Source of the DNA: Victivallis vadensis
Lineage (GTDB): Bacteria; Verrucomicrobiota; Lentisphaeria; Victivallales; Victivallaceae
Direction of reading: 5' to 3'
DNA length: 64,000 nucleotides
Assembly (NCBI RefSeq): GCF_003096415.1
Contig: NZ_QEKH01000008.1
Location: forward strand, 62,001-126,000
Shown piece after piece: positions 13,314-32,865 of this stretch. The position numbers were made by a program, and so were the translations under genes. Under the pieces are notes generated by a model that saw nothing but the letters and a program-made list of their open reading frames with translations, was not told where the DNA came from and searched no databases. Position 1 is the stretch's first letter. Each line of letters begins with the position of its first letter.

Positions 13314-14021
13314 TTATCGCCGTTTCAGCAGGCCGCGGAATCTGCGCCGCCACGAGGCCAGCTCGCGCGGCGGCGTGATCAGGAAAAAAACCGCGCCCAG
13401 ACCGGCCGGAGCCAGCAGAAAGACGTAGTGTCCGAACCCGTGCAGAAGCAGCGCCCCGGCGGCGGCTCCGAAGATGAAGCAGACGATCACGCCGTAGTAG
13501 TGCAGCGCCTTATGCAGCTCCTCGCGCTTCCGGTCGAAGCAGCAGTGAAACAGCGCCTCCGTGCCGCTGCGGAGGTTTCCGGTACACATCGTCGAAGCGA
13601 ACGGCAATCCCTGCACCCGGCGGAACGTCTGCACCTGCAGTGCGCACACGAACGAAATCAACGCATTCACAATGAAGTCGAACTCTCCGTATGGAATGAA
13701 GCAGACCGGCGCCAGGCAGACCAGTTCCAGCAAAATCACGCACTGGTGCCACGTGACCCGCCGAAACGCCGGCAGCTTGCGATGCACGATTTCCGCAATG
13801 AAAATCCCCAGCGCATAGAACAGGATCGCCAGCACGTATCTCGAACTTGCCAGCCACTCCCGGTGCGCCAGGTGAAACCCGCACAGCACCATGTTGCCGG
13901 TCACCGCATTCGCAAACACCTTCCCCCGGTAAAGGTACGTGTAGATATCCAGAAAACCGCCGACCACGCTCAATACGCACGCCGCCGTCAGCCGCTCCGC
14001 ATTTGCCGATGTAAGATTCAT
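13314..14021 (-). CDS. DUF1275 (YoaK-like) membrane protein
   Basis: About 235 residues with six or so hydrophobic segments. The DUF1275 signatures are visible: GGFLDIYTYLYRGKVFANAVTGNMV near the N-terminus and LPFASTMCTGNLRSGTEAL in the middle. Function in this family is unknown; a transport role has been suggested only by its topology. ATG 14021 starts the family-typical region; sequence further upstream in frame is not conserved. The gap upstream (14022-14231) holds a partial copy of the GGGGATTTCGCTCC sequence also found behind thrC. Confidence 0.85.
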   Translation of the reverse strand: MNLTSANAERLTAACVLSVVGGFLDIYTYLYRGKVFANAVTGNMVLCGFHLAHREWLASSRYVLAILFYALGIFIAEIVHRKLPAFRRVTWHQCVILLELVCLAPVCFIPYGEFDFIVNALISFVCALQVQTFRRVQGLPFASTMCTGNLRSGTEALFHCCFDRKREELHKALHYYGVIVCFIFGAAAGALLLHGFGHYVFLLAPAGLGAVFFLITPPRELASWRRRFRGLLKRR

Positions 14022-14231
14022 AATCCGCCGTATCCTCCGGCAGATAAAATACACGCTCAACCCTCGCGGTTCAAGTCCCCCCCACCTTGCCCATAAAAGT
14101 ATTGGGGATTTCGCTCCCATCGGAACGAGCAGGAACCATCCGCACTAGTCATCTTAAAAATGCGATATATTTCAACCGAGCAGAAGCTGAAACTCTTTTC
14201 CGTGTATGCTCGTTGGGATTTTGCGTGGATA

Positions 14232-15047
14232 TCAGACGAGATCGACGGTCAATCCGTCGTATGACCACTCCATGCATGGATTGTCGTCCAATGCGGCGGG
14301 AAATTTCGTGCAGGGCAACGGAGCGGCGAGATGGGAGACGTGAACCGCCCAGATGTGCGATTCCGGCGTGAGCGTGTTTTGCCGCCGCAGACGCGCGACG
14401 ATTTCACGGATGGCCGGGAGACCCATGTGGCCCTGGTGTTCGCGGTGCTCCACGCCCCAGGTCGCATCGATGAAGATGTGGTCGACCCGGCGGTTTTTCA
14501 GCAATGCGAACGCCGATTCGGGGAAGCGGTCGCTGTCATTGGCGATCAATACGTTTTTTCCCGGAGTTTCAATCAGATACATCAGACACTCCTCGGTGGG
14601 GATGTGGTCGGTCGCAATCGCCGTCACCCGGATCCCGTCGAACGATACGGTTTCGCCGGAACGGAGCAATTGCGTTTGCAGCGTGATACCGAAATTCCGG
14701 TACGGCGCAAGCTGCTTCAACACTTCGGTGTTGCCGTAGAGGGTCACGATTTGTTCCGGCGCGGAAACCCCAAGTGTCTGATTCCACAGCTCCTCCGCGC
14801 CGAAGTGGTCGGAGTGGCTGTGGGTGATGAAGATCCGCCTGAGTTTCGTCAGGTCGAATCCCAGCTCGCGCGCCTGCATCGCTGTATCGGGGCCGAAATC
14901 GAACTTCACCGCATCGCCCAGCAGATATCCGGTGCGGGAACGGCGCTCCTTTCCGCCATTTTCACGCGCCGATACGCAGACCGGGCAACGGCAGAACAGC
15001 CCCGGAATCCCGACAGCATCCCCTGAACCGCAAACCATGAATTTCAT
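14232..15047 (-). CDS. Metallo-beta-lactamase-fold hydrolase (PhnP-like)
   Basis: A 271-residue MBL-fold hydrolase with the zinc motif FITHSHSDHFGAEE, a further Asp in IANDSDRF and His in WAVHVSHL. The N-terminus GSGDAVGIPGLFCRCPVC resembles PhnP-type cyclic phosphodiesterases, including a CxCxxC cluster that in PhnP holds a structural zinc. AAGAGGATGG precedes ATG 15047. It is the last gene of the leftward GntR-pilin-glycosidase set, 26 bases behind the DUF5696-like gene, which suggests action on a phosphorylated or cyclic breakdown product, but that is inference. Confidence 0.8.
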   Translation of the reverse strand: MKFMVCGSGDAVGIPGLFCRCPVCVSARENGGKERRSRTGYLLGDAVKFDFGPDTAMQARELGFDLTKLRRIFITHSHSDHFGAEELWNQTLGVSAPEQIVTLYGNTEVLKQLAPYRNFGITLQTQLLRSGETVSFDGIRVTAIATDHIPTEECLMYLIETPGKNVLIANDSDRFPESAFALLKNRRVDHIFIDATWGVEHREHQGHMGLPAIREIVARLRRQNTLTPESHIWAVHVSHLAAPLPCTKFPAALDDNPCMEWSYDGLTVDLV

Positions 15048-15073
15048 ATTCCATCCTCTTATCCGGTTGTCCG

Positions 15074-17089
15074 TCAATTGTTCCACTCTGTTTCGACGCT
15101 CCAGTTCAGCGCATTGCCGCGCATCGTCTTTCCGGGATATGAGATGCTCCAGTCACCGGAATTCTGGTCGGCGGTGACAACCGTGCCGTCGGCATAGACA
15201 GCCTGCTGACAGCGCCCGTCCGGAGACAGCTGCCTGTGATCGGTCATCTCCAGCAATGCGACCCGCCCGTGCAATTCCGCAACAATCCCTGCCGCCTCGA
15301 CATCCTCGGCGGAAGCGTCCACCGACAGATAGGGCATGCCGGCGGAAATCAGCGCGTGCAGGAACGGGATGTCGTGCTTCGAATAATAGTACGAACCGCG
15401 CCGGCGTCCGGTTTCAAACGGTACGATCATCGCATCATGATAAACCAGAGCATAAAGCGGCAGCGGTATCGCGAAATTCTCATACTCCGGATTGACCGCC
15501 CAGGTGGTATGGTGAACCAGATGCAGGGTGCGGACAGTCCAGTCGGCGGCTTCTTCCGAACTGACGATGCCGAAATTCCGGCGGATATAATCAAAGCAGG
15601 CCCGACGGAGCCTGAAGGAGTCGGAACGTGTCATCCTGTGTTCATGATGGTAGCATTCATCACCGGAAACAGCGGAAAATACATCCAGATAACAGCCGTC
15701 GGGAGCCGCGCCAATTTCCCTGAGGTAAGTGTTGTTTCGCCTGACATAGTCCAGTGAACGGGTCGTACAGACCAGCGCGTTGGCGCCCCCGGCCCAGCTG
15801 TCTTCGATGTGGTGAGTTCCGTCTTCGCGCAACAGCAGCAGCTCCTTGTTGTAACTTGGAGCATCAAGATACATATCGCGGTACTGCTGATGATAAACCA
15901 CGATGTAGTCATTTTCACGGGCGAAAGCGAGGAATTTTTTCAGACCTTCCTTGCCGCCGGCTTTCTCTCCCACCGGAATCTGATCCGGCTCAAGATTGTC
16001 ATAGCCCCGGTAACCGATGCCGTCGACATGAATGTATGCCTTCCTGAGCCCGAACTTCCGCTGAATGCGTTCGAACTTTTCAATCAGCTCGGCATAGGGG
16101 ATGAAGAGCGTATCCGTTCCGCTCCGCACGTTGTACTGGCGTGCCGTCACATGGAAGATCGGTGAACCGATCAGCCGGGCGAGCCTGGGAAGCTCGGCGA
16201 TTTTGTCCGCAGTTGAACGGAACGTTCCGTTTTCCTGAGCGATCCTGCGATATGTCCTGGCCATGGCGACATAGTTCCCGTCGACCAGTTTAAGCCGGGC
16301 GCGCCGGGTATAATTCATTTTTCCGAGGGAATGAATCCATTTGGGAGAAACGGTGGTTCCGTTTTCCGGCGAATGATAAAGCTGGATTCCCGCATCATCC
16401 GGAGTTTCGAAGATCAGCATCGCCGACTTGCCGCCGCGGGTCACGCCCCACCATGGCATATATAGAGAAAGGCCGTAAGCCAGTCCGATTTTCCCGCAGT
16501 CGGCATAAGGCGCGTCGATTACTTTCGGCCAATTCCGGGGGATCATCAGTCCCGATGTATGCGGCACGATCGTCGCATCGACATCGTCGCCCGCGAACGC
16601 ACCGGGCCAGCTGGCCAGTCGCAGCGCGGTATCCTCTTCCACCGGTCGCAGTTCAAACACCGCATCGCCGGTCGCGTAATCCAGACCGGCAAAGAGAATG
16701 ACTTTCAAATCCGCAGACCGGCCGCCGACGGAAAAACCGGACAGGGATAATCTGATCCCGAAAATTCCGGCCCATTGTTCGGTTGAGATCGCAACAGACC
16801 CGGCGTCGGTGAGCTTTATTATATGCTCCGAACCATCCCGCAGTCTTGCCGCCGCATCGTCCGGAGTGCGCAGAACAAATGCATGACCGGCTTTCTGCAA
16901 CGTCACCTGCAGATTTTTCGAGTTCAATTTCAGCGTGGTATCACCGGCAGAGAGCTCCAGCATACCGGGAGAAGTTTCATGGAATGAAACAAAACGGTCG
17001 GCTTTCAGCGCATCCGGAGTGGCGGCATCGCGCATCTGCTGTGCCCACGGCAAAGCATCGCAAACCGTTGCTGCAGTTTTTGTCTTCAT
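15074..17089 (-). CDS. DUF5696-like putative glycoside hydrolase
   Basis: A 671-residue protein with an N-terminal beta-rich region (about 1-270) and a TIM-barrel-like core (about 310-560) that includes AYIHVDGIGYRGYDNLEPDQ, PDGCYLDVFSAVSGDECYHHEH and GIVSSEEAADW. These acidic motifs resemble DUF5696 and GH101/GH129-type alpha-N-acetylgalactosaminidase folds. No signal peptide is visible, so it may act inside the cell after import. AAGGA precedes ATG 17089. A strong hairpin (17108-17137) lies just in front of the ribosome-binding site. It follows the secreted GH71/GH99-like gene. The exact substrate is unknown. Confidence 0.65.
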   Translation of the reverse strand: MKTKTAATVCDALPWAQQMRDAATPDALKADRFVSFHETSPGMLELSAGDTTLKLNSKNLQVTLQKAGHAFVLRTPDDAAARLRDGSEHIIKLTDAGSVAISTEQWAGIFGIRLSLSGFSVGGRSADLKVILFAGLDYATGDAVFELRPVEEDTALRLASWPGAFAGDDVDATIVPHTSGLMIPRNWPKVIDAPYADCGKIGLAYGLSLYMPWWGVTRGGKSAMLIFETPDDAGIQLYHSPENGTTVSPKWIHSLGKMNYTRRARLKLVDGNYVAMARTYRRIAQENGTFRSTADKIAELPRLARLIGSPIFHVTARQYNVRSGTDTLFIPYAELIEKFERIQRKFGLRKAYIHVDGIGYRGYDNLEPDQIPVGEKAGGKEGLKKFLAFARENDYIVVYHQQYRDMYLDAPSYNKELLLLREDGTHHIEDSWAGGANALVCTTRSLDYVRRNNTYLREIGAAPDGCYLDVFSAVSGDECYHHEHRMTRSDSFRLRRACFDYIRRNFGIVSSEEAADWTVRTLHLVHHTTWAVNPEYENFAIPLPLYALVYHDAMIVPFETGRRRGSYYYSKHDIPFLHALISAGMPYLSVDASAEDVEAAGIVAELHGRVALLEMTDHRQLSPDGRCQQAVYADGTVVTADQNSGDWSISYPGKTMRGNALNWSVETEWNN

Positions 17090-17107
17090 CGGCAAATCCT
17101 TTTAAGG

Positions 17108-17137
17108 AGAGCTGAACCGGTTCAGGAATTCAGCTCT
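17108..17137 (-). promoter_or_regulatory. Palindromic hairpin before the DUF5696-like gene
   Basis: Outer arms AGAGCTGAA/TTCAGCTCT enclose part of a perfect 14-base palindrome CTGAACCGGTTCAG, so two alternative structures can form. No U-run follows; the ribosome-binding site comes next. It could be an attenuator, mRNA processing site or protein-binding site. Confidence 0.45.
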
Positions 17138-17221
17138 TCACTGGTTAATAATCCGTATTGTTATCCGTTCTATATGTCGTATTTGCAATAAGGCGCATCA
17201 CATCAGGGCCTTGTTTCCAGG

Positions 17222-20023
17222 TCACTTGCCATCGTTTTTCGTACAGTTCGAGATTTTCAAATTATCAATTTTTCCCTCAAAGCCGTTCTCCTTGTCGCCC
17301 AGCGTGAAAAAGAAGTTCCGAAAATCCCGGTAGGGTGCGAAGCGGCTTTTCCCTTCTTTGACCCCGTCAATGAACAAGGTACCGCTTTTTTCGTCAAAAA
17401 CGAACTTGACGGAATGCCAGACTCCAGTGCTGACAGGTTTCTCGGAAAGCACATAGCTCTGATCGCCGTAACGCCCGATGCGCAGCTTCCCGTCGCTCTG
17501 GATCCGGACGAAGAACCCGCCCTGGCAGACATGCCCGTTGCCGGACATGATCAGTCTGGAATCTTCCGGAATCTTATCCAGATAAAGGCTGAACTCCAGA
17601 ACGCAATTGGCCAACGGCGAAACACGGCGGCGCAGCATCGTCTCACTTCCTTTGGTGAACACCAGACAATTGCTTCCGTCCGGCCCTTCCGGTTTCAGCA
17701 GTTGTTCAAAGGGATAGGTCAACGGACGGTCCCCAAGAGCATCTTCCCCCCCGTTATCGAAATTCCAGGAGCCTTCCCTGAGAACATGCGAATTCACCCT
17801 GAACGTTTTAACTTTATTCGTGCGGGGGACATCCGCGTAATATCCCATATTGTCAAGGGTCGCCTCCTGGCTGAAATAGGTTTCCAGAAGATTCATACGG
17901 ACGAATGTCTCTTTGCCGAACGGAGTCAGGAACTTGGTGCAGGCATTTTTACCTTCGACGGTCAGAAAATTGATGTGGTAGACATCGCTTTCATGCGAAG
18001 GGCGCGAATAAAACCTGACGGTCAGTTCGGTCTGATCAGGCAACCCGTTCCCGGCAAAGACAGCGTGATTGTTCCAATCGTTGAATTCAAAACGGCATTC
18101 CTGATCGGCCCCGATAACGAGCTGCCGGTTCTTCAGCAGTTCCGCCGCCGGAGCGGAACCGATCAGTTGATCGTTGTGATAAACTTCAAAAACTGTTTCG
18201 GGGGTTGCATCCATCTGAGTACCATAGGCTCCCATGGCATAAGGAGCCAGCCGCAGGTGCTGCGGTCCCCAATCGACTTTGTCCATGTCGAGGTTGAACC
18301 CATGTTCCCGCTTCAGGCCGAGGATCTTACCGTTTTTAATCTTCAGCTCGAAACGGGCGGACGTATGCTTGGGATAAACAGTCAGATTCAATAAGCAGCT
18401 TTGCGAATCGGCAGTAAAATCGGCAACCATCCTGTCGTTGCGGAAGAGCATTGCGCGCGCAATTTTTTCAGGCGATCTGAATTTCACTTTGGCAGTTACA
18501 AGATTCGCATCCTGCCTGACTTCAAAATCAGCTTTCACTTCGGTCAGGTTATGAAACGCGCTTCTCTGAATGCTCCAGTTCTGAATCCAGGGAGTACGCA
18601 GCAGAACGGCAGGCAGCTTTCGTGTGGACGTTTTTGTCTGTCCGTCATAATTCCAGGTCAGCGTGATCTCCGGAAATATCGCATGGGAAACCGCAAGAGG
18701 ACCGGAAGGAATAAGCCATTCACAGCGGTCAAAATCATTCATGTTCAGTTTCTTGCTCTGAAGTTTCCGGACTTCTTCACCGTTGTTGTTCAGCAGCCGG
18801 CCGGAAATCATGACTTTGCCCTGCGCTTGAATGGGAGTTGAAAGCGCAGTCAGGCGGATGACGGTTCCCGCCAGATATTCCCTGTTTGCGGCGAAATAAA
18901 CTCTGGGTTCCGATTGCTTCGGAGCGGGATTCTGCCTGAAGTACTGGTCAATGAAAGCCTCCATTACTTCGGCGGAAGCTCCGAAATCAAACGTGCGCGG
19001 GAAAATGGGAGTTTCGCCGATGTCATTCCAGGTTGCAATATTCAGCCAATCGACCTCATCCGGCTTGAAAGCATGAAAGCAATCCCAGATTTTATCATAT
19101 CCGCGGAAAGGAACATATCCGTAATGTCCCAGATCTTCCAGCCAGTTTCCGCGATATCCCGGCGTGATTGTCGCCACCGGTTTCTTGTTGAACCGGGCCA
19201 GTGCGTTGCGAAGCGCGACGAATTCTTTCCGATGAACACCTTCCGGTTCACCGCGGTCATTCCACGCCCGCGAGGAAAACATGAACGGATAAAAACTGTC
19301 GCAGACTTCACCATAAGGATCGATATAAGTCCCCTCGACCATTTTTTCCACATTGGAACGCCATTCCGCCGTTTCCCTGTGCAGGACATAGTAGATCTCG
19401 ATTCCTTTCGCCTTCAGACGTCTCTTGATTTCGGCGATTTTCTCAGGCGAGTGCCGCCAGGCGCCCGAAAAGCTGAAGAAAATATACTTGTTGCCGATTT
19501 TGGGGAAATTGGGATGATTCCCCAGATTCTTCACAATTTTTTCCGTGGAGTCAACACTCAGCTGAATTCCCGCTTCCCCATCAAGCGGCGGGATGTCGAA
19601 ACAGAACCCCACCAGAAAGGACGTGCCTTTTGCCGCCTCAAGGTAGCAGTCGGCAAAAGACATCTGATCCGCCGTCCCGATGTCCATGAAAAAACCGTCG
19701 ATGCCGACAGCCTGCGCCATGGCAATTTCCCGCTTGGCGCTTTCGATCAATGTCGCATCCGGTTTCAAGGCGACTTCATGATACCCGTCGACCCGGAGCT
19801 GGCTGTTATATAAATTGTGCCACGGCACCGTGTGTGCGAAAACCATTTTCCGGCCGGGCTGGACTCCGGGGACTCCCGGTTTCAGGACAATCGGATCGGC
19901 GACCGCGATTCCGGCAATATCGACAGCCTGTTCAGGGACATCATCCCCGGCACAGACACTCAGTACAGTTCCGAGACAAAGCAATATCAGAGATTTTTTC
20001 TTGAAAGCAGTGAATAAGTTCAT
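17222..20023 (-). CDS. Secreted GH71/GH99-like glycosidase with C-terminal LamG-like domain
   Basis: A 933-residue exported protein (signal LILLCLGTVLSVCAG). Residues 55-390 form a TIM barrel with GH71/GH99 hallmarks: KMVFAHTVPWHNLYN, GIDGFFMDIGTADQ, and WLNIATWNDIGETPIFP, the last resembling the WND-GE signature of these families. The middle (about 400-720) is beta-rich. Residues 740-925 look like a LamG/concanavalin carbohydrate-binding domain (WNFDNGGED, VWHSVKFVFDEKSGTLFIDG). GH71 cleaves alpha-1,3-glucan and GH99 alpha-mannosides; which applies is open. It lies 126 bases behind the fused pilin gene under the GntR operator. Confidence 0.72.
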   Translation of the reverse strand: MNLFTAFKKKSLILLCLGTVLSVCAGDDVPEQAVDIAGIAVADPIVLKPGVPGVQPGRKMVFAHTVPWHNLYNSQLRVDGYHEVALKPDATLIESAKREIAMAQAVGIDGFFMDIGTADQMSFADCYLEAAKGTSFLVGFCFDIPPLDGEAGIQLSVDSTEKIVKNLGNHPNFPKIGNKYIFFSFSGAWRHSPEKIAEIKRRLKAKGIEIYYVLHRETAEWRSNVEKMVEGTYIDPYGEVCDSFYPFMFSSRAWNDRGEPEGVHRKEFVALRNALARFNKKPVATITPGYRGNWLEDLGHYGYVPFRGYDKIWDCFHAFKPDEVDWLNIATWNDIGETPIFPRTFDFGASAEVMEAFIDQYFRQNPAPKQSEPRVYFAANREYLAGTVIRLTALSTPIQAQGKVMISGRLLNNNGEEVRKLQSKKLNMNDFDRCEWLIPSGPLAVSHAIFPEITLTWNYDGQTKTSTRKLPAVLLRTPWIQNWSIQRSAFHNLTEVKADFEVRQDANLVTAKVKFRSPEKIARAMLFRNDRMVADFTADSQSCLLNLTVYPKHTSARFELKIKNGKILGLKREHGFNLDMDKVDWGPQHLRLAPYAMGAYGTQMDATPETVFEVYHNDQLIGSAPAAELLKNRQLVIGADQECRFEFNDWNNHAVFAGNGLPDQTELTVRFYSRPSHESDVYHINFLTVEGKNACTKFLTPFGKETFVRMNLLETYFSQEATLDNMGYYADVPRTNKVKTFRVNSHVLREGSWNFDNGGEDALGDRPLTYPFEQLLKPEGPDGSNCLVFTKGSETMLRRRVSPLANCVLEFSLYLDKIPEDSRLIMSGNGHVCQGGFFVRIQSDGKLRIGRYGDQSYVLSEKPVSTGVWHSVKFVFDEKSGTLFIDGVKEGKSRFAPYRDFRNFFFTLGDKENGFEGKIDNLKISNCTKNDGK

Positions 20024-20149
20024 TTTTCATCCGGATGTTCCAAATTTTAACTTCAGGAATGTCGGGGGCCGCTCTCTGTTTTCCCTTGAAAGCGCATTCG
20101 CGGACAGGGCAATCCCCTTGACAATTTTCGTGTCACACAGCAGACTGAA

Positions 20150-21283
20150 TCAATACAGATTTATTTTGACCCCGTTTGCCTCATAACAGACATTCTGCGA
20201 TGTGTAAAAATCCCTCATATTATTCATCATGACCAATTTTGCGGAGCCGTCAAGAAACGTTACCGCGGAACTGTGATTGTGGCGCAATGCAATGGCATTC
20301 ATATTGAATACCAGATGGTCGGCCATCTCCTCGCCGGATACCTGAGCCGGTCCGGAAGTCCAGCTGTCCATGTTCACATTGATGGAATCTGCGAAAACCG
20401 GCTGCCGGGCGGGAGCGGGATGTCTTGTGATGTCCCATTGATACCACCAGCCGTATTCATCGCTTGAGTAGGCCCAGGAAACTCCGATATTCAGGTTATA
20501 AAGAAAATTCATATGAAACATGCCGGTGATGTTGTACATGCTTGAAGTTCTCGGAAGCGCGTTGGGACAATGAAGATTTGCAATCTCACCGAAACTGTTC
20601 ACGATCTGTGCTTCCGTGACATCGTTGCCGGAGTGCCCCTCCACGGTAATATACCCGGCACGCACAAATGGAATCGGCCATGAAACCCTGGGCACGCCGA
20701 CCGTCTTATAATCTGTCGCATACATCGACAGCATTAATCCATGCTGTTTTTTGTTGTTGATGCAAGTGATCGCCCGTGCTTTATCCCGTGCCTGATTCAG
20801 GGCGGGCAGCAGCATCGCCGCCAGTATCGCAATGATTGCAATCACAACGAGCAGCTCTATAAGGGTAAACGGCCTTACATGGCGGTATGCGGGGGGCGTA
20901 TCCGCCGCCCCCCGCGCACCCTGCGTCCGGCAAGGTGCCGGTGCCGGGTAGGGGGCGGTGCAGTGCAAAGACGCGGTCGGTCGGCAGTGGGAAGAAGATC
21001 CGCAATAACGTGAAGTTGTCTTCCCGCTTTTCTGCGGAAAAACAACTTCACGTTTTTGCTCCGACCTGCCGCTTGCAGAGCATTGGCGGAGGCGTGAGAG
21101 CTTGCAGGGAATAAGTGAGATGTTCAGATTGGTTGGTACGGGGAGAGATGCGGCACAAGTCGCCGCTTTCTCTCCCCCGAACCCCTCTCTTTCGCGCAGA
21201 GCGGAATATGGAAAGGAATTGCAGATTTGACAAGTTTCAGTAACCAGAAGCTCAATCAATGTAAAATGGCTGACACGTTTCAT
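20150..21283 (-). CDS. H-x9-DG prepilin-like protein with duplicated prepilin signal
   Basis: A 377-residue frame. Near the start it has a complete type IV prepilin leader (MKRVSH then FTLIELLV at 21242-21265). After 124 in-frame codons of unrelated, Ser/Cys/Arg-rich sequence a second FTLIELLV (20846-20869) continues as a normal pilin core ([25 protein letters not shown]) and ends with the H-x9-DG motif [12 protein letters not shown]. No usable start codon lies close before the second signal, so the pilin must be made as the long fusion, be silent, or be translated from an unusual start. GGAAGGATG precedes ATG 21283. It lies first in the operon controlled by the GntR site at 21382-21399. Confidence 0.75.
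20870..21241. mobile_element. 372-bp in-frame insert between two prepilin signals
   Basis: The insert separates two FTLIELLV copies of the pilin gene. Its length is a multiple of three and it has no stop codon in the pilin frame. It includes a hairpin with perfect 12-base arms (AACGTGAAGTTG/CAACTTCACGTT, 21007-21054) and a stretch GGCAAGGTGCCGGTGCCGGG shared with the intergenic repeat family at 41 kb. The two flanking signal copies differ at several bases, so they are not a simple target-site duplication. No transposase is encoded; a non-autonomous element or a recombination product are both possible. Confidence 0.6.
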
Positions 21284-21381
21284 TTTCTCATCCTTCCCGT
21301 TGAAGAGTGTACTTGAAGATTTCATGGAAAAACAACTTTCACTTGTTTGAAACGCGCACCCGAAGGGCAGTCCGGCACGCT

Positions 21382-21435
21382 TAATCCAATTTTGGATTAC
21401 ATTATAATTATACCATACTCAAAACGAAATGTCAA
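21382..21435 (-). promoter_or_regulatory. Promoter and GntR-type operator of the pilin/glycosidase operon
   Basis: Minus strand: TTGACA (21430-21435), 17-base spacer, TATAAT (21407-21412), then 7 bases further a palindrome with arms TAATCCAA/TTGGATTA (21382-21399). The same arrangement stands before the regulator gene at 22627-22681, so this is very likely its target site. Confidence 0.82.
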
Positions 21436-21459
21436 TAGGGAAACTATAAAAAATTCAAA

Positions 21460-22575
21460 TTAATCGCGATTCGCAGCCGGTTTCAGCTGAACGCTTTCCG
21501 GCGTGAGACGCAACGGCGGAATCCAGCGCAGCGACGGGACGCTTTCCGCGCCGCGCAGACGGTTCAGCAGCTGTTCGACCGCGCCTTCGGCCAGCTCCCG
21601 GCTGTCGATCTCGTAGTCGATCACCTCCCGGCACGGGAAGTCGATCGGCGCCTTGCGGTTGCGCAGACAGACGGCGGGCGGCAGATAGTCGATCCGCCTC
21701 CCCTGCTCCCGGACCAGCTCCGAAAAAAAGCCCTGCGCGATGATGTCGTCGCCGATCACCACGCTGTCCGGCCTCCGCTCCGGCGGCATCCGCAGGAACG
21801 CGTCGGCGAGCCGATGGCCGCTTTCAAGCCCGTAGCCTTCGAGGTACATCGCGTCAAGCGGCACCGGGCACTCCGGCCAGCCCGCCAGATATTCCGCAAG
21901 GCGCGGAAGGCTGAAACAGCGCAGCGGGCCGGGACCGATCAGGATGCGCGGCATCCGGTATCCGGCCTCCCGCAGTTCGTCCAGCCCCCGGATCATGAAA
22001 CCGACCGAATCCAGGAAAATCCCGGATTCCACATGCGACGGAGGCCCGCAAAAACAGACCTTCAGCCCGGCTTCATCCAGACCGGGCAGCAGTTTCTCCG
22101 CATAGAAGTCGGAGATGCTGATCAGCCCGTGCACCAGCTTCTGCGAAACCGCGTATTCAAGGCCGGGGAAGTCCGAAAACTCCGGCGTGTCGCGGTACTC
22201 CTCCCGGAACGGGAACATCGTGCATTCGCAGCCGTTTTTCTGCAGCGCATCCTGCACCGCATAGGCGAGGCTCCAGTTGAACATGTGAGGGGCATCCAGC
22301 AACAGCCCCACGATGCCGATCGAACGCCCCGGCAGCCCCTCCGGCTTCGCGTTGCGCACGAATACCCCTACCCGGCGGCGCGCCTCCAGCACCCCGTCCT
22401 GCACCAGCGCCTTGACCGCGCGGTCCAGCGTGGCGCAGCCGATCTGCAGATGGCGGCAAAGCTCGGTCTGCGAAGGGATTTTATCCCCTTCGCGCAGCTT
22501 CCGGTCCCAGATATAGCGCAGGATGCCCTGCTTGGCCTTCTCGGTCTGTCTGCCCAGATTCTGTCCGAAAATCAT
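21460..22575 (-). CDS. GntR-type regulator with LacI-like ligand domain (AraR-like)
   Basis: A 371-residue repressor-type protein. Residues 1-75 are a GntR winged helix (QTEKAKQGILRYIWDRKLREGDKIPSQTELCRHLQIG, then VKALVQDGVLEARRRVGVFV); residues 85-355 are a LacI/periplasmic-binding-fold sensor (SIGIVGLLLDAPHMFNWSLA onward). This architecture is that of AraR-like sugar-responsive repressors. GAGGAG precedes ATG 22575. Its own promoter and the promoter directly behind it carry nearly the same 18-base palindrome, so autoregulation and control of the pilin-GH operon are likely. The inducing sugar is unknown. Confidence 0.88.
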   Translation of the reverse strand: MIFGQNLGRQTEKAKQGILRYIWDRKLREGDKIPSQTELCRHLQIGCATLDRAVKALVQDGVLEARRRVGVFVRNAKPEGLPGRSIGIVGLLLDAPHMFNWSLAYAVQDALQKNGCECTMFPFREEYRDTPEFSDFPGLEYAVSQKLVHGLISISDFYAEKLLPGLDEAGLKVCFCGPPSHVESGIFLDSVGFMIRGLDELREAGYRMPRILIGPGPLRCFSLPRLAEYLAGWPECPVPLDAMYLEGYGLESGHRLADAFLRMPPERRPDSVVIGDDIIAQGFFSELVREQGRRIDYLPPAVCLRNRKAPIDFPCREVIDYEIDSRELAEGAVEQLLNRLRGAESVPSLRWIPPLRLTPESVQLKPAANRD

Positions 22576-22626
22576 CGGATCTCCTCATGAATGGTCCGCG
22601 CCTTCCCGACTGCCGGAGGAAAGCGA

Positions 22627-22681
22627 TAATCTATTTTTAGATTACAATTTCAATTATACAGCAAAACAACGGGAATGTCAA
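22627..22681 (-). promoter_or_regulatory. Promoter and autoregulatory operator of the GntR-type gene
   Basis: Minus strand: TTGACA (22676-22681), 17-base spacer, TATAAT (22653-22658), then a palindrome with arms TAATCTA/TAGATTA (22627-22644). Position and sequence mirror the site at 21382-21435. Confidence 0.82.
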
Positions 22682-22784
22682 GAGAGGAACCGGAAAAAAC
22701 GGATAATTTTTCCCTTTCCGGGGAGCGGATTTGCTTTTTTCCGGTTCGCATGTAGGGTATGACAGAAACATCAGGAGCAGATTC

Positions 22785-23735
22785 ATGATAACGGTATTGG
22801 TCACGCAGCCGCAGTACGACAAGGTACGCGAAGTCTTTGAACATGCGGAGGGCTTTCAATGCTTTCCCGCCCCCGAATCCGAACCGGAACTGGCGCGCCT
22901 GGTCCGCGAAAAGCACGCGAAATACGTGATCGTCGGCGGCGCCCCGTACCGGAACGAGCTGTACGACGCGGTTCCGAAAGGCGGCGTGATCGCCCGCTTC
23001 GGCATCGGCTGCGACAACATCAACCTCCCGCGCGCCGCCGAAAAGGGCATCTACTGCACCAACACGCCCGGCGCACTCGAACAATCCGTCGCGGAGTGCG
23101 CCATCGGCATGATCCTGCTGGCGGCGCGTCAATTCATCGCCGCGGCCGACGACTGCCGCAACGGGCTCTGGCAGCCCCAAACCGGCTGCGAACTCGCCGG
23201 CAAGACACTGGCCGTAATCGGCTGCGGCGCTATCGGCAGCCGGGTCGCCGCCATCGCCAAAAACGGTTTCGGAATGAGCGTGACCGGCGTGATCCGCTCC
23301 GCTCCCCGCCCCGACTGCCCCGCCGACCGCTTCGTGAAAAATTGGAGTGACGCGGTGGCCGACGCCGATTTCGTCTCCCTCCACATCCCCGGCTCCCCGG
23401 AAAACCTCAATTACGTTTCCGCCGGGCGGCTGAAACAAATGAAACCCGGTTCCTGGCTGATCAACACCGCCCGGGGCAGCGTGGTCGACGAAGCCGCGCT
23501 CTATGACGCACTGCTTTCCGGCCGGATCGGCGGCGCGGTATCGGATGTTTTCCGGCAGGAGCCTTACGCTCCCTCCGGCAAGGACCTGCGCACCCTCCCC
23601 AACATGATCATGACGCCCCATATCGGCAGCAGCACCCGGGAAGCCTGTCGCCGCATCGCGCTGGCGGCGCTGAAAAACATCCGGCTCTGCGAACTCGGCG
23701 ATCCCCTGAGCATGAATCTGCTGAATCCCCGCTGA
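22785..23735 (+). CDS. D-2-hydroxyacid dehydrogenase (phosphoglycerate dehydrogenase-like)
   Basis: A 316-residue NAD-dependent dehydrogenase. The Rossmann motif VIGCGAIGSRVAA, the substrate-binding Arg in LINTARGSVVDE, and the catalytic His in MTPHIGSSTREAC are all present. It is shorter than SerA and lacks an ACT domain, so it is more likely a 2-hydroxyacid or phosphoglycerate-like dehydrogenase of another pathway. AGGAG precedes ATG 22785. It is divergent from the GntR-type gene (about 210 bases between starts), so shared control is possible but not shown. Confidence 0.88.
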   Translation: MITVLVTQPQYDKVREVFEHAEGFQCFPAPESEPELARLVREKHAKYVIVGGAPYRNELYDAVPKGGVIARFGIGCDNINLPRAAEKGIYCTNTPGALEQSVAECAIGMILLAARQFIAAADDCRNGLWQPQTGCELAGKTLAVIGCGAIGSRVAAIAKNGFGMSVTGVIRSAPRPDCPADRFVKNWSDAVADADFVSLHIPGSPENLNYVSAGRLKQMKPGSWLINTARGSVVDEAALYDALLSGRIGGAVSDVFRQEPYAPSGKDLRTLPNMIMTPHIGSSTREACRRIALAALKNIRLCELGDPLSMNLLNPR

Positions 23736-23756
23736 TTCCGCAGGCTGTCGGACAAT

Positions 23757-23790
23757 AAAAAAAAACTCCCGCACGTCTTTCGCGCGGGAG
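23757..23790 (-). terminator. Terminator behind the Flp pilin genes
   Basis: Minus strand: stem CTCCCGC/GCGGGAG with a 9-to-11-base loop followed by a run of nine U. It ends the panD-flp-flp unit and faces the dehydrogenase gene end. Confidence 0.88.
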
Positions 23791-23808
23791 CTTTCGTTAC
23801 GCCGATGC

Positions 23809-24054
23809 TCAATTGCCGTTCGCATCCAACCCTTCGCTGCTGAGGTTCTGGATGATGTCCACGCTGGTCTGGTCGGCGTTGGCGGCCTTCTCGCCGCCCA
23901 GCGTCGTGGTGATGCCGGAAATCATGTCGCGCAGACGATCGCTGAAGCTCGCCAGCACAAAGAGCGCCGCGAGCGCCACCACCGCGATCAGAATCACATA
24001 CTCCATCAACGCCTGTCCGCGACGGCGCTTCAGCCGTTTGCCACGAATCAACAT
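23809..24054 (-). CDS. Flp/class III type pilin-like protein
   Basis: An 81-residue protein with a basic leader (MLIRGKRLKRRRG) followed by QALMEYVILIAVVALAALFVLASF, the pattern of Flp-type (type IVb) prepilins: Gly, a Glu at mature position 5 or 6 and a long hydrophobic helix. The tail is polar (SSEGLDANGN). AGGAGG precedes the ATG. It follows a second, shorter Flp-like gene and panD on the same strand and is closed by a good terminator. Assembly genes (TadA, TadB, TadC, prepilin peptidase) are not in the window, so its use as pilus subunit is inferred. Confidence 0.82.
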   Translation of the reverse strand: MLIRGKRLKRRRGQALMEYVILIAVVALAALFVLASFSDRLRDMISGITTTLGGEKAANADQTSVDIIQNLSSEGLDANGN

Positions 24055-30912: not shown

Positions 30913-31692
30913 TCAGTGGTTTTTCGCCACGACGCGCGTGAGCGAACTGGTGTAGTAGACGTCGACGTTCACCTGGGAATCGACCAGTTCCGGGCCGCCC
31001 AAGCTTTCCGCATGGCCATCCACGAAGCCGACCACGCACCGATTGGAGTGCGCCAGCCAGATGCCGGAATAGGGTCTGTCCTGCGCCTTGAGATAATCCG
31101 GAGCCCACTCGTAATACCCTTTCCCGAAGCGGTATTCACCGCCGCTGTCGATCGTGCTGACGGTGTCGGCCAGATAGAAGAATCCGCTTGGATTTTTCAC
31201 CTTGTGGGAAACGATCGTGATCATCAGATTTCCCGCTCCCTGCGCCCAGCAGTTGCCAAATGCGGCGATACGGGAGCAGTCCGCGTTGGCCGAATTGTTC
31301 ATCCAGGCGCCGTAACTGCCCCAGTAGCGCTGCTGCGGAACCGCCATGTCATACTCCACGGGCACGTTGTTGGCGGGACAGGTCATCACCGCCCACGGCA
31401 CATAGGCTTTTCCGAGCAGATTCCGGGCGTCATAGGACATGTTTGTAAGCAGAACATTGAACGGGATGAAACTTGTGCCGATCTGCGTTTTCATCACGAT
31501 GTGGCCGTTGTAGTCGGAGGCATAAGAACTTTCCGCGAGCAGAACCTGCTTCTTGTTGGAGAGGCAGCTAACCGCCTTGGCACGATCCCTGGCCTTGTTC
31601 AGCGCCGGCAGAAGCATCGCCGCCAGAACTGCGATGATCGCTATCACCACCAATAATTCAATCAATGTAAAGTATGTTCCGGTTTGTTTCAT
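30913..31692 (-). CDS. H-x9-DG prepilin-like protein
   Basis: A 259-residue pseudopilin. A short leader MKQTGTY precedes [31 protein letters not shown], the type IV prepilin signal processed by prepilin peptidase. The globular part ends with the H-x9-DG motif [21 protein letters not shown] stands before the ATG. It lies two bases behind the LacI gene and eight bases ahead of a secreted beta-helix gene, so all three are one transcript under the palindromic operators at 32.8 kb. Family function is unsettled; a secretion pseudopilus or surface display are options. Confidence 0.9.
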
Positions 31693-31694
31693 CG

Positions 31695-32729
31695 CTACTT
31701 CCTTTCGTGGGTAGGTTGTGTGCTTTCGCGGGCGAGCAAAGTCGAATGGAATTTCACGGTGCGGCAGGGCGCGTCCGGTTCCCGCAGCCGGGCCAGGGTC
31801 AGGTCCACCAGCGCGCGGCAGATTTCCGGCACCGGCTGCGCCCACACGGTCAGCGGCACCGAATAAAGACGGCAGAGGGCCAGATCGCTGATCGTCGCGA
31901 CCTTCACCTGCCCCGGAATGGACAGCCCGGCGTCGCCGACCGCCCGGCAGCAGCCGAACACCTTGTTGATGTTGTGGACGATCAGGCCGTCAAACGCATC
32001 CGGCTCCTTCTTCAGCCGTTCCAGCACCGCCCGGTAAGCCGCCTCCTGCGAATCCTCGCAAGCCACCGCATTCCGGGAATCCGCCGCCAATCCGGCTTTT
32101 TGCAGCGCGGCCCGGAAAAAATCCGCCCCGGCTCCCGCCCTGCCTTCCTGCAATGCGTCGGCGCAGCCGCCGACCACGCCGATTTTGCGGCAGCCGCGTT
32201 CGATCAGGTGCTCCGCCAGCGCCCGATAGCCCGCGTCGATGTCCAGCAGCACACAGTCGAACACCCCGTCGACCTCCGGAACGTTGCTGCGGAAAATCAG
32301 CGGCAGGCCGTTGCGCCGGATCACTTCATACTGGGCCGCGCACCGTTCGGCGTTGTGGTACATCGCGATCATCGCGTCAACCTCGTGGTGCAGCAGCGCA
32401 TCCAGCGCCGTATTCTCCTTTTCGGGCCGGTTGTGGCAGATGAAGGGACGCAACGCGTAACCCGCCGCGGAGAGTTCGAGATCAAGCGTTTCGATATATT
32501 CGGCATAGACCCCGTCGAACACATTCGGGATCAGCAGCCCCACCGTCCGCGTCACGCCGGAAGCCAGCGAACTGGCGGTGCGGTTCGCGACATAGCCGAG
32601 GCGGAGCGCCGCCTCCCGGATCCGGCTGCGATTCTCCCCGCTGACCCGGTTCGGACGGCCGTTCAACACCCGCGACACCGTGGAAACATCGCAGCCGACA
32701 GCCTTTGCAACATCTTTCAGCGTGGTCAT
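31695..32729 (-). CDS. LacI family transcriptional regulator
   Basis: A 344-residue repressor. The N-terminal helix-turn-helix reads [29 protein letters not shown] with the hinge helix [10 protein letters not shown]; a periplasmic-binding-type sensor follows ([20 protein letters not shown]). ATG 32729 is favoured because the HTH begins right there. It heads a leftward operon with a pilin and beta-helix genes. Its promoter region has a near-consensus promoter and at least two CG-centred palindromes, the usual form of LacI operators, so autoregulation with operon control is likely. Confidence 0.93.
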
Positions 32730-32754
32730 GACCTCTGTTCCTTGAAAAGTTTCC

Positions 32755-32829
32755 GATGGAACAAACGCTTGTTCCATCTGCTTCAAAAAAATACCGGGTG
32801 GAACCGTCCACCAGAACAAACGTTTGTTC
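32755..32829 (-). promoter_or_regulatory. LacI operators (two strong palindromes and one weaker)
   Basis: GAACAAACGTTTGTTC (32814-32829) is a perfect palindrome 7 bases behind the -10 box. A second, near-perfect site has core GGAACAAACGCTTGTTCC inside 24 bases at 32755-32778. Between them 32797-32812 is a weaker palindrome (GGTGGAACCGTCCACC). The central CG fits LacI-family binding sites. Confidence 0.82.
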
Positions 32830-32836
32830 AATATTA

Positions 32837-32865
32837 ATTATACCAAAACTCAATGCGAATGTCAA
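32837..32865 (-). promoter_or_regulatory. Promoter of the LacI-pilin-beta-helix operon
   Basis: Minus strand: TTGACA (32860-32865), 17-base spacer, TATAAT (32837-32842), with the operators immediately downstream. Confidence 0.85.

Follow-up and report, generated by a model that had tools for sequence, protein, structure and literature searches.

Within the 64,000-nucleotide stretch of Victivallis vadensis DNA analysed here (the window), the gene of a 371-residue regulator lies between two very strong promoters, the second of which leads into a row of genes for a prepilin and putative glycosidases; the question raised by this arrangement is whether the regulator governs both its own gene and the row behind it, and through which DNA sites. 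The sequence comparisons described below make it very probable that it acts as a repressor switch on its own gene and on the prepilin-glycosidase operon, by way of twin palindromes. The features of the locus are collected in Table 1.

Table 1. Features of the regulator locus and the operon behind it, in positions of the window
Feature	Position	Strand	Remarks
Regulator promoter, TTGACA-17-TATAAT	22653..22681	-	12/12 match
Operator 1 (predicted), TAATCTAAAAATAGATTA	22627..22644	-	sequence as read on the minus strand; expected over about +1 to +18 of the regulator mRNA
Regulator of 371 aa; GntR winged HTH at residues 11-73, then a LacI-type sensor domain	21460..22575	-	
Pilin-glycosidase operon promoter, TTGACA-17-TATAAT	21407..21435	-	12/12 match; TG preceding the -10 box
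Operator 2 (predicted), TAATCCAAAATTGGATTA	21382..21399	-	sequence as read on the minus strand; expected over about +1 to +18 of the operon mRNA
Prepilin-like ORF, DUF1559 type, 391 aa as listed	20150..21325	-	
Repeated in-frame insert in the prepilin gene	20870..21241 (element 20870..21265)	-	FTLIELLV on both sides
Secreted protein, 933 aa, GH71-like and LamG-type domains	17222..20023	-	Pfam Glyco_hydro_71 4.6e-9, Laminin_G_3 4.9e-15
GH129-like alpha-N-acetylgalactosaminidase relative, 673 aa	15074..17095	-	phmmer to NagBb 5wzn
MBL-fold hydrolase (PhnP-like)	14232..15086	-	overlaps the GH129-like ORF

Promoters and palindromes flanking the regulator gene

Both promoters named in the initial annotation were found where it had placed them, each matching the consensus at every position with a 17-nt spacer, and positions 14000-24000 of the window hold no other site of this quality. 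They are read on the minus strand, as are the regulator gene and the operon behind it. The annotation had further described an 18-base palindrome behind each promoter at a nearly equal distance, which proved accurate: TAATCCAATTTTGGATTA follows the -10 box of the operon promoter by 7 nt and TAATCTATTTTTAGATTA that of the regulator promoter by 8 nt, the latter lying upstream of the regulator ORF and the former just behind its stop codon. The proposed consensus TAATCyA-n-TrGATTA holds at both sites with a spacer of four, and the homologues, read by eye, suggest an additional outer G and C (GTAATCyA-n4-TrGATTAc). With transcription start positions taken from their usual spacing to the -10 box, the palindromes are predicted to cover about +1 to +18 of the two transcripts. 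No Rfam family scored above threshold in positions 20000-23000 of the window.

Rarity of the palindrome in the genome

The whole genome (G000; 5,199,916 bases in 87 contigs) was scanned for TAATCYA-N(2-6)-TRGATTA, each exact match being counted on both strands as the site is palindromic, and exact matches occur only at the two window sites, with 0 for the reversed-pattern control. The palindrome is thus not spread over many unrelated promoters, having two exact places in 5.2 Mb, and the view of the locus as a complete regulon unit is supported, the only two exact sites standing either side of the regulator gene and in the same place at both promoters. This rarity is one of exact matches; in the window alone, a pattern allowing up to three mismatches gives three matches against 1.6 expected, and this looser pattern is therefore not significant there.

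Further regulon members were sought and set aside, as the fixed N4 pattern with up to two mismatches gives 9 further places in the genome against 5 in the control, none of the 9 having just one mismatch. A looser genus-wide pattern with three mismatches was likewise discarded: 31 of 61 genomes match it, mostly at unrelated palindromes, and control matches reach at least 11 in AT-rich genomes. The half-site GTAATCCA is present behind an 11/12 promoter preceding a prepilin (G000:C10:31127-31181), a doubtful third target because a further ORF of its unit begins with an HTH-like N-terminus (L189:2428-3684).

The regulator and its conservation

The description of the regulator as a GntR/LacI hybrid is borne out by domain models, profile and predicted fold. 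Pfam assigns GntR at 3.6e-11, over its cutoff, and Peripla_BP_3 at 5.4e-5, just below it; in a profile of 16 homologues, the first 73 positions match GntR HTH structures and the remainder LacI-family sensor structures. The AlphaFold model (pLDDT 85.9, pTM 0.82) has PurR, LacI and CcpA as its nearest solved folds in Foldseek, with E 1e-13 for PurR and LacI.

A search of 61 genomes, the own genome included, gave a match to the regulator at E<=1e-20 in 10. In one of these (G005:C7) a 69%-identical regulator has twin palindromes on either side (L093, positions 11721 and 12924), GTAATCCTGTTATGGATTAT before the gene and GTAATCCAAAAACAGATTAA behind it, the second located between a perfect promoter and a prepilin. 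In another (G006) the regulator is 99% identical, its HTH end being cut off by the contig end, and the promoter, operator 2, the prepilin and the GH71-like and GH129-like genes are all kept; as the regulator-side region is off that contig, only the pilin-side operator is comparable there. The pilin-side alignment shows TTGACATT, GTATAATT and TGTAATCCAAAA to be unchanged across the three genomes, in surroundings that mostly differ, and in G005 promoter and operator form conserved islands within drifted intergenic DNA. The upstream, regulator-side alignment is poorer, and the promoter of the G005 regulator's own gene is weak (3/6 at -10).

Across the wider family, a matrix built from the two window operators alone was run over the 200 bp preceding each of 14 homologues, with dinucleotide shuffles as background, giving a combined p of 2e-7, with 6 of the 14 individually at p<0.05. 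Nine of the 14 have their best site 15-41 nt ahead of the coding match, and in 8 of these 9 a -10 box (5-6/6) precedes it by 5-11 nt. For the other five (L021, L029, L031, L024, L026) the best matrix score is not at the expected place, and L024 and L026 show no convincing site at all; a looser consensus allowing A or T at position 4, widened after the homologues had been seen, does place a site where it would be expected in L021 and L031. Cross-training between site groups assigned post hoc gives weaker support (p 8e-4 for 11 regulators and 5e-4 for 4). In the distant sites of L027 and L020 the arms are mismatched, yet their position is the same. Taken with the unique sites and the G005 twins, the matrix scan supports the earlier proposal that the regulator would control itself and the pilin-glycosidase operon.

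Gene order is also shared. Of 16 regulator loci, two are cut by a contig end, and among the 14 testable ones, the window included, a same-strand prepilin follows the regulator in 13 (within 630 bp in 12), the exception being L106, where no prepilin motif was found downstream. The units of G026 begin with the regulator gene and have a single operator for regulator and prepilin together, whereas in the window and in G005 the two genes are separated by an additional promoter with its operator.

A side observation concerns residue 51 of the regulator, where D or H goes with TAATC half-sites and other residues with TAAAC or similar (operator base 4); this correlation, 4 against 9 regulators read by eye, is small, phylogenetically uneven and picked post hoc, and serves as a lead only.

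The probable operon behind operator 2

The prepilin is the first gene of the row, and, judged by eye, its better start is the ATG at 21283, which an AAGGA-type site precedes. A prepilin leader and hydrophobic helix are present (TIGR02532, 21.6 bits against a cutoff of 16.3, residues 153-173), with the Pfam models N_methyl and DUF1559 just below cutoff. For the 933-aa protein that follows, no sequence match was found in the PDB. The 673-aa protein was matched by phmmer to the structure of NagBb over residues 112-653 (E 1.7e-80), and by its sequence it is a relative of this GH129 alpha-N-acetylgalactosaminidase; Pfam assigned it to DUF5696, with the GH129 model at only 7.3e-4, under cutoff. Related members of GH129 reportedly act on other sugars as well, as in work on carrageenan. 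Trp398, described as forming the sugar platform in NagBb (PMC8106489), is aligned to Trp434 of the 673-aa protein, a position counted by hand.

Transcription of the prepilin, GH71-like, GH129-like and MBL-fold genes as one operon is probable, a reading that draws support from a paralogous row of prepilin, GH129 and MBL genes elsewhere in the genome (G000:C10, L190). An alpha-1,3-glucan substrate, as the GH71 match would propose, was not retained, a GalNAc-type substrate being at least as likely given the GH129-like neighbour. The enzymes are less constant than the switch: behind the conserved regulator and operator of G005 stand a DUF4838 protein and a solute-binding protein, not GH71 or GH129, and other homologous units hold DUF6259, DUF4838 or GH123-like enzymes. 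As the enzymes differ behind a conserved switch, the effector is not readable from them with confidence. If one sugar is to be named, GalNAc derived from mucin-type glycans is the first choice, a tentative guess that rather probably misses, made for this genome only and from the GH129-like enzyme in the operon.

A repeated insert in the prepilin gene

Between the promoter and the mature pilin lies an insert, 396 bases here, which ends in a second FTLIELLV motif and belongs to a repeated element of about 396-408 bp found within prepilin leaders. About 40 long copies occur elsewhere in the genome, with related copies in G002 and G003 and one in G035. Over the 285 bases before the second motif, the pilin frame is free of stops in all 30 copies fetched, while the other two sense frames contain a stop in 29 and 30 of the 30. 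Under neutrality, the observed substitutions predict 22 stops in the pilin frame, and 0 were seen; the corresponding p of 1e-10 is too small because the copies share ancestry, and the constraint on the amino acids themselves is weak (ratio 0.74). The repeat would rebuild the prepilin cleavage site at its own end, letting the leader peptidase cut the foreign stretch away, and the element may survive because prepilin peptidase removes the stretch it encodes. The insert also holds a strong inverted repeat at 20998-21053, AACGTGAAGTTGT...ACAACTTCACGTT, kept in many copies as judged from reverse-strand matches.

In G006 the same prepilin lacks this insert and has another stretch in the same place (L094:5992-6400), whose second frame resembles, by eye, the tail of a LacI-type regulator, the pilin then restarting with its own ATG. 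This different stretch at the same place makes the leader region look like a site of frequent recombination.

Proposed mode of action and alternative readings

In the proposed mechanism, a dimer of the regulator would occupy the 18-20 bp palindrome at which transcription from each of the two very strong promoters begins. In the absence of the sugar, the dimer at +1 would halt RNA polymerase at either promoter, by which the regulator would limit its own amount as well as that of the operon; a breakdown product would then bind the sensor domain, the regulator would let go, and both promoters would be transcribed. Binding, repression and release by sugar are steps that we infer from sequence, and repression is preferred to activation on account of the palindrome position at +1.

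Activation of the operon is extremely unlikely in this light. Some regulators of the GntR and LacI domain families can activate, but both promoters here are perfect and need no help, and a dimer bound to sites beyond the -10 box, right at the transcription start, would stand in the way of RNA polymerase. A different objection is that the sites could be bound by another of the genome's dozens of GntR/LacI-type regulators instead of the one whose gene they flank. This is very unlikely, since the site occurs only either side of that gene and follows relatives of the 371-aa regulator into other genomes, and since the nearest paralogs are only about 30% identical to it over the HTH end.

The palindromes might also act as hairpins at the 5' end of the RNA, in stability or attenuation, rather than as DNA operators, and three of the four 5' stretches tested can fold into a hairpin, two of them clearly better than their shuffles (z -4.39 and -3.30) and the third at z -1.36. 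The pilin-side site of G005, however, keeps the DNA half-sites while its RNA shows no folding advantage over shuffles (z 0.15), and it is on this site that the hairpin reading was rejected as highly improbable. The mismatched arms at the same place in L027 and L020 also speak against it, and a hairpin would leave unexplained why the sites track this regulator family.

Relation to known systems

The closest comparison is AraR of Bacillus subtilis, which has the same two-domain build of a GntR HTH and a LacI/GalR-type sensor, and whose HTH structure (4egy) is matched by the regulator HTH profile at E 1e-6. AraR is described as using palindromic operators at its own promoter and at polysaccharide-degradation genes, from which a sugar releases it (PMC4218819), and palindromes probably serving as operators are likewise seen here at the own and target promoters. 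The operator consensus given for AraR in the same source is AT(T/A)TGTACGTACAA(A/T)T (PMC4218819); its central GTACGTAC is absent from the sites here, which read TAATCyA-n4-TrGATTA. Furthermore, the AraR regulon is dispersed over eight boxes or more, whereas here two sites only are present, both local, and the controlled operon starts with a prepilin gene. For GntR-type palindromes in general, GT and AC ends are described, at a distance from the centre that varies by subfamily (PMC4494728), and the 20-bp form GTAATC...GATTAC, judged by eye, fits such a frame with wide spacing.

Local repressors of the LacI/GalR family share the sensor fold (PurR, LacI, CcpA) and would share an operator overlapping the promoter start as well as autoregulation; they differ from this regulator, which has a GntR-type DNA-binding domain and AT-rich half-sites without the LacI-type CG centre. 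A true LacI unit in the same window carries GAACAAACGTTTGTTC, unlike the TAATCyA-n4-TrGATTA sites. In the polysaccharide utilization loci of Bacteroidota, a local regulator is found beside secreted glycosidases, and the same adjoining position is seen here. In contrast to those loci, no SusC or SusD was found among the ORFs read, the constant place is held by a DUF1559-type prepilin, and some of the units here add a solute-binding protein.

A recurring layout in the genome

The unit at 21382-22681 is not special to its locus and is one of many alike in the genome. Perfect TTGACA-17-TATAAT promoters number 60 (33 and 27), with 0 in the reversed control. Within 35 nt after the -10 box, a palindrome with an arm of at least 6 is found at 16 of the 60 against 3.4 expected from shuffles, and one with an arm of at least 7 at 7 of the 60 against 1.0. 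Among the prepilins listed, a leader lies up to 2.5 kb downstream on the same strand for at least 26 of the 60 promoters and on the opposite strand for 2, counts that are lower bounds, the prepilin at 30913-31845 of the window not being among those listed. At least 150 prepilin leaders occur in the genome. After removal of three promoters without a locus and two without a first ORF of 150 codons, 55 first genes were scanned, of which 43 match Peripla_BP_3, 26 the GntR model and 20 the LacI HTH model.

A second such unit is present in the window itself at 31695-32864, with a perfect promoter at about 32836-32864, a LacI-type gene and a prepilin, together with two further ORFs that resemble beta-helix proteins by eye. 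Its operators are GAACAAACGTTTGTTC and, closer to the gene, GGAACAAGCGTTTGTTCC.

A genome-wide system is a reasonable possibility, though one that falls short of probable, in which each of dozens of private units combines a perfect promoter with its own operator and its own repressor, of GntR/LacI or LacI type, and adds a single DUF1559-type prepilin and one to a few secreted enzymes, and in which the prepilin is a dedicated partner in the export, assembly or surface attachment of its unit's enzymes, not a general part of a pilus. No paper on Victivallis prepilins or on such regulator-prepilin-enzyme units was found in the open literature searched.

The finding at this locus is right and of a known kind; the surprise is the recurrence of the layout and the constant prepilin. 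What the locus itself yields is a defined operator that can be checked, with a regulon of two promoters and no more. The relation between operator and regulator predicts a family of pairs differing at one base and one recognition-helix residue, which would be useful for understanding GntR-type recognition. For the genome, the strongest promoters mark its sugar regulators, and the promoter rule offers a rapid way to chart dozens of glycan-use units that have yet to be studied, in a gut lineage for which tools are scarce, and ties each of them to a prepilin. If the genome-wide system is true, a different pilin would be built with every food, and the units would be this phylum's equivalent of the SusCD loci known from Bacteroidota.
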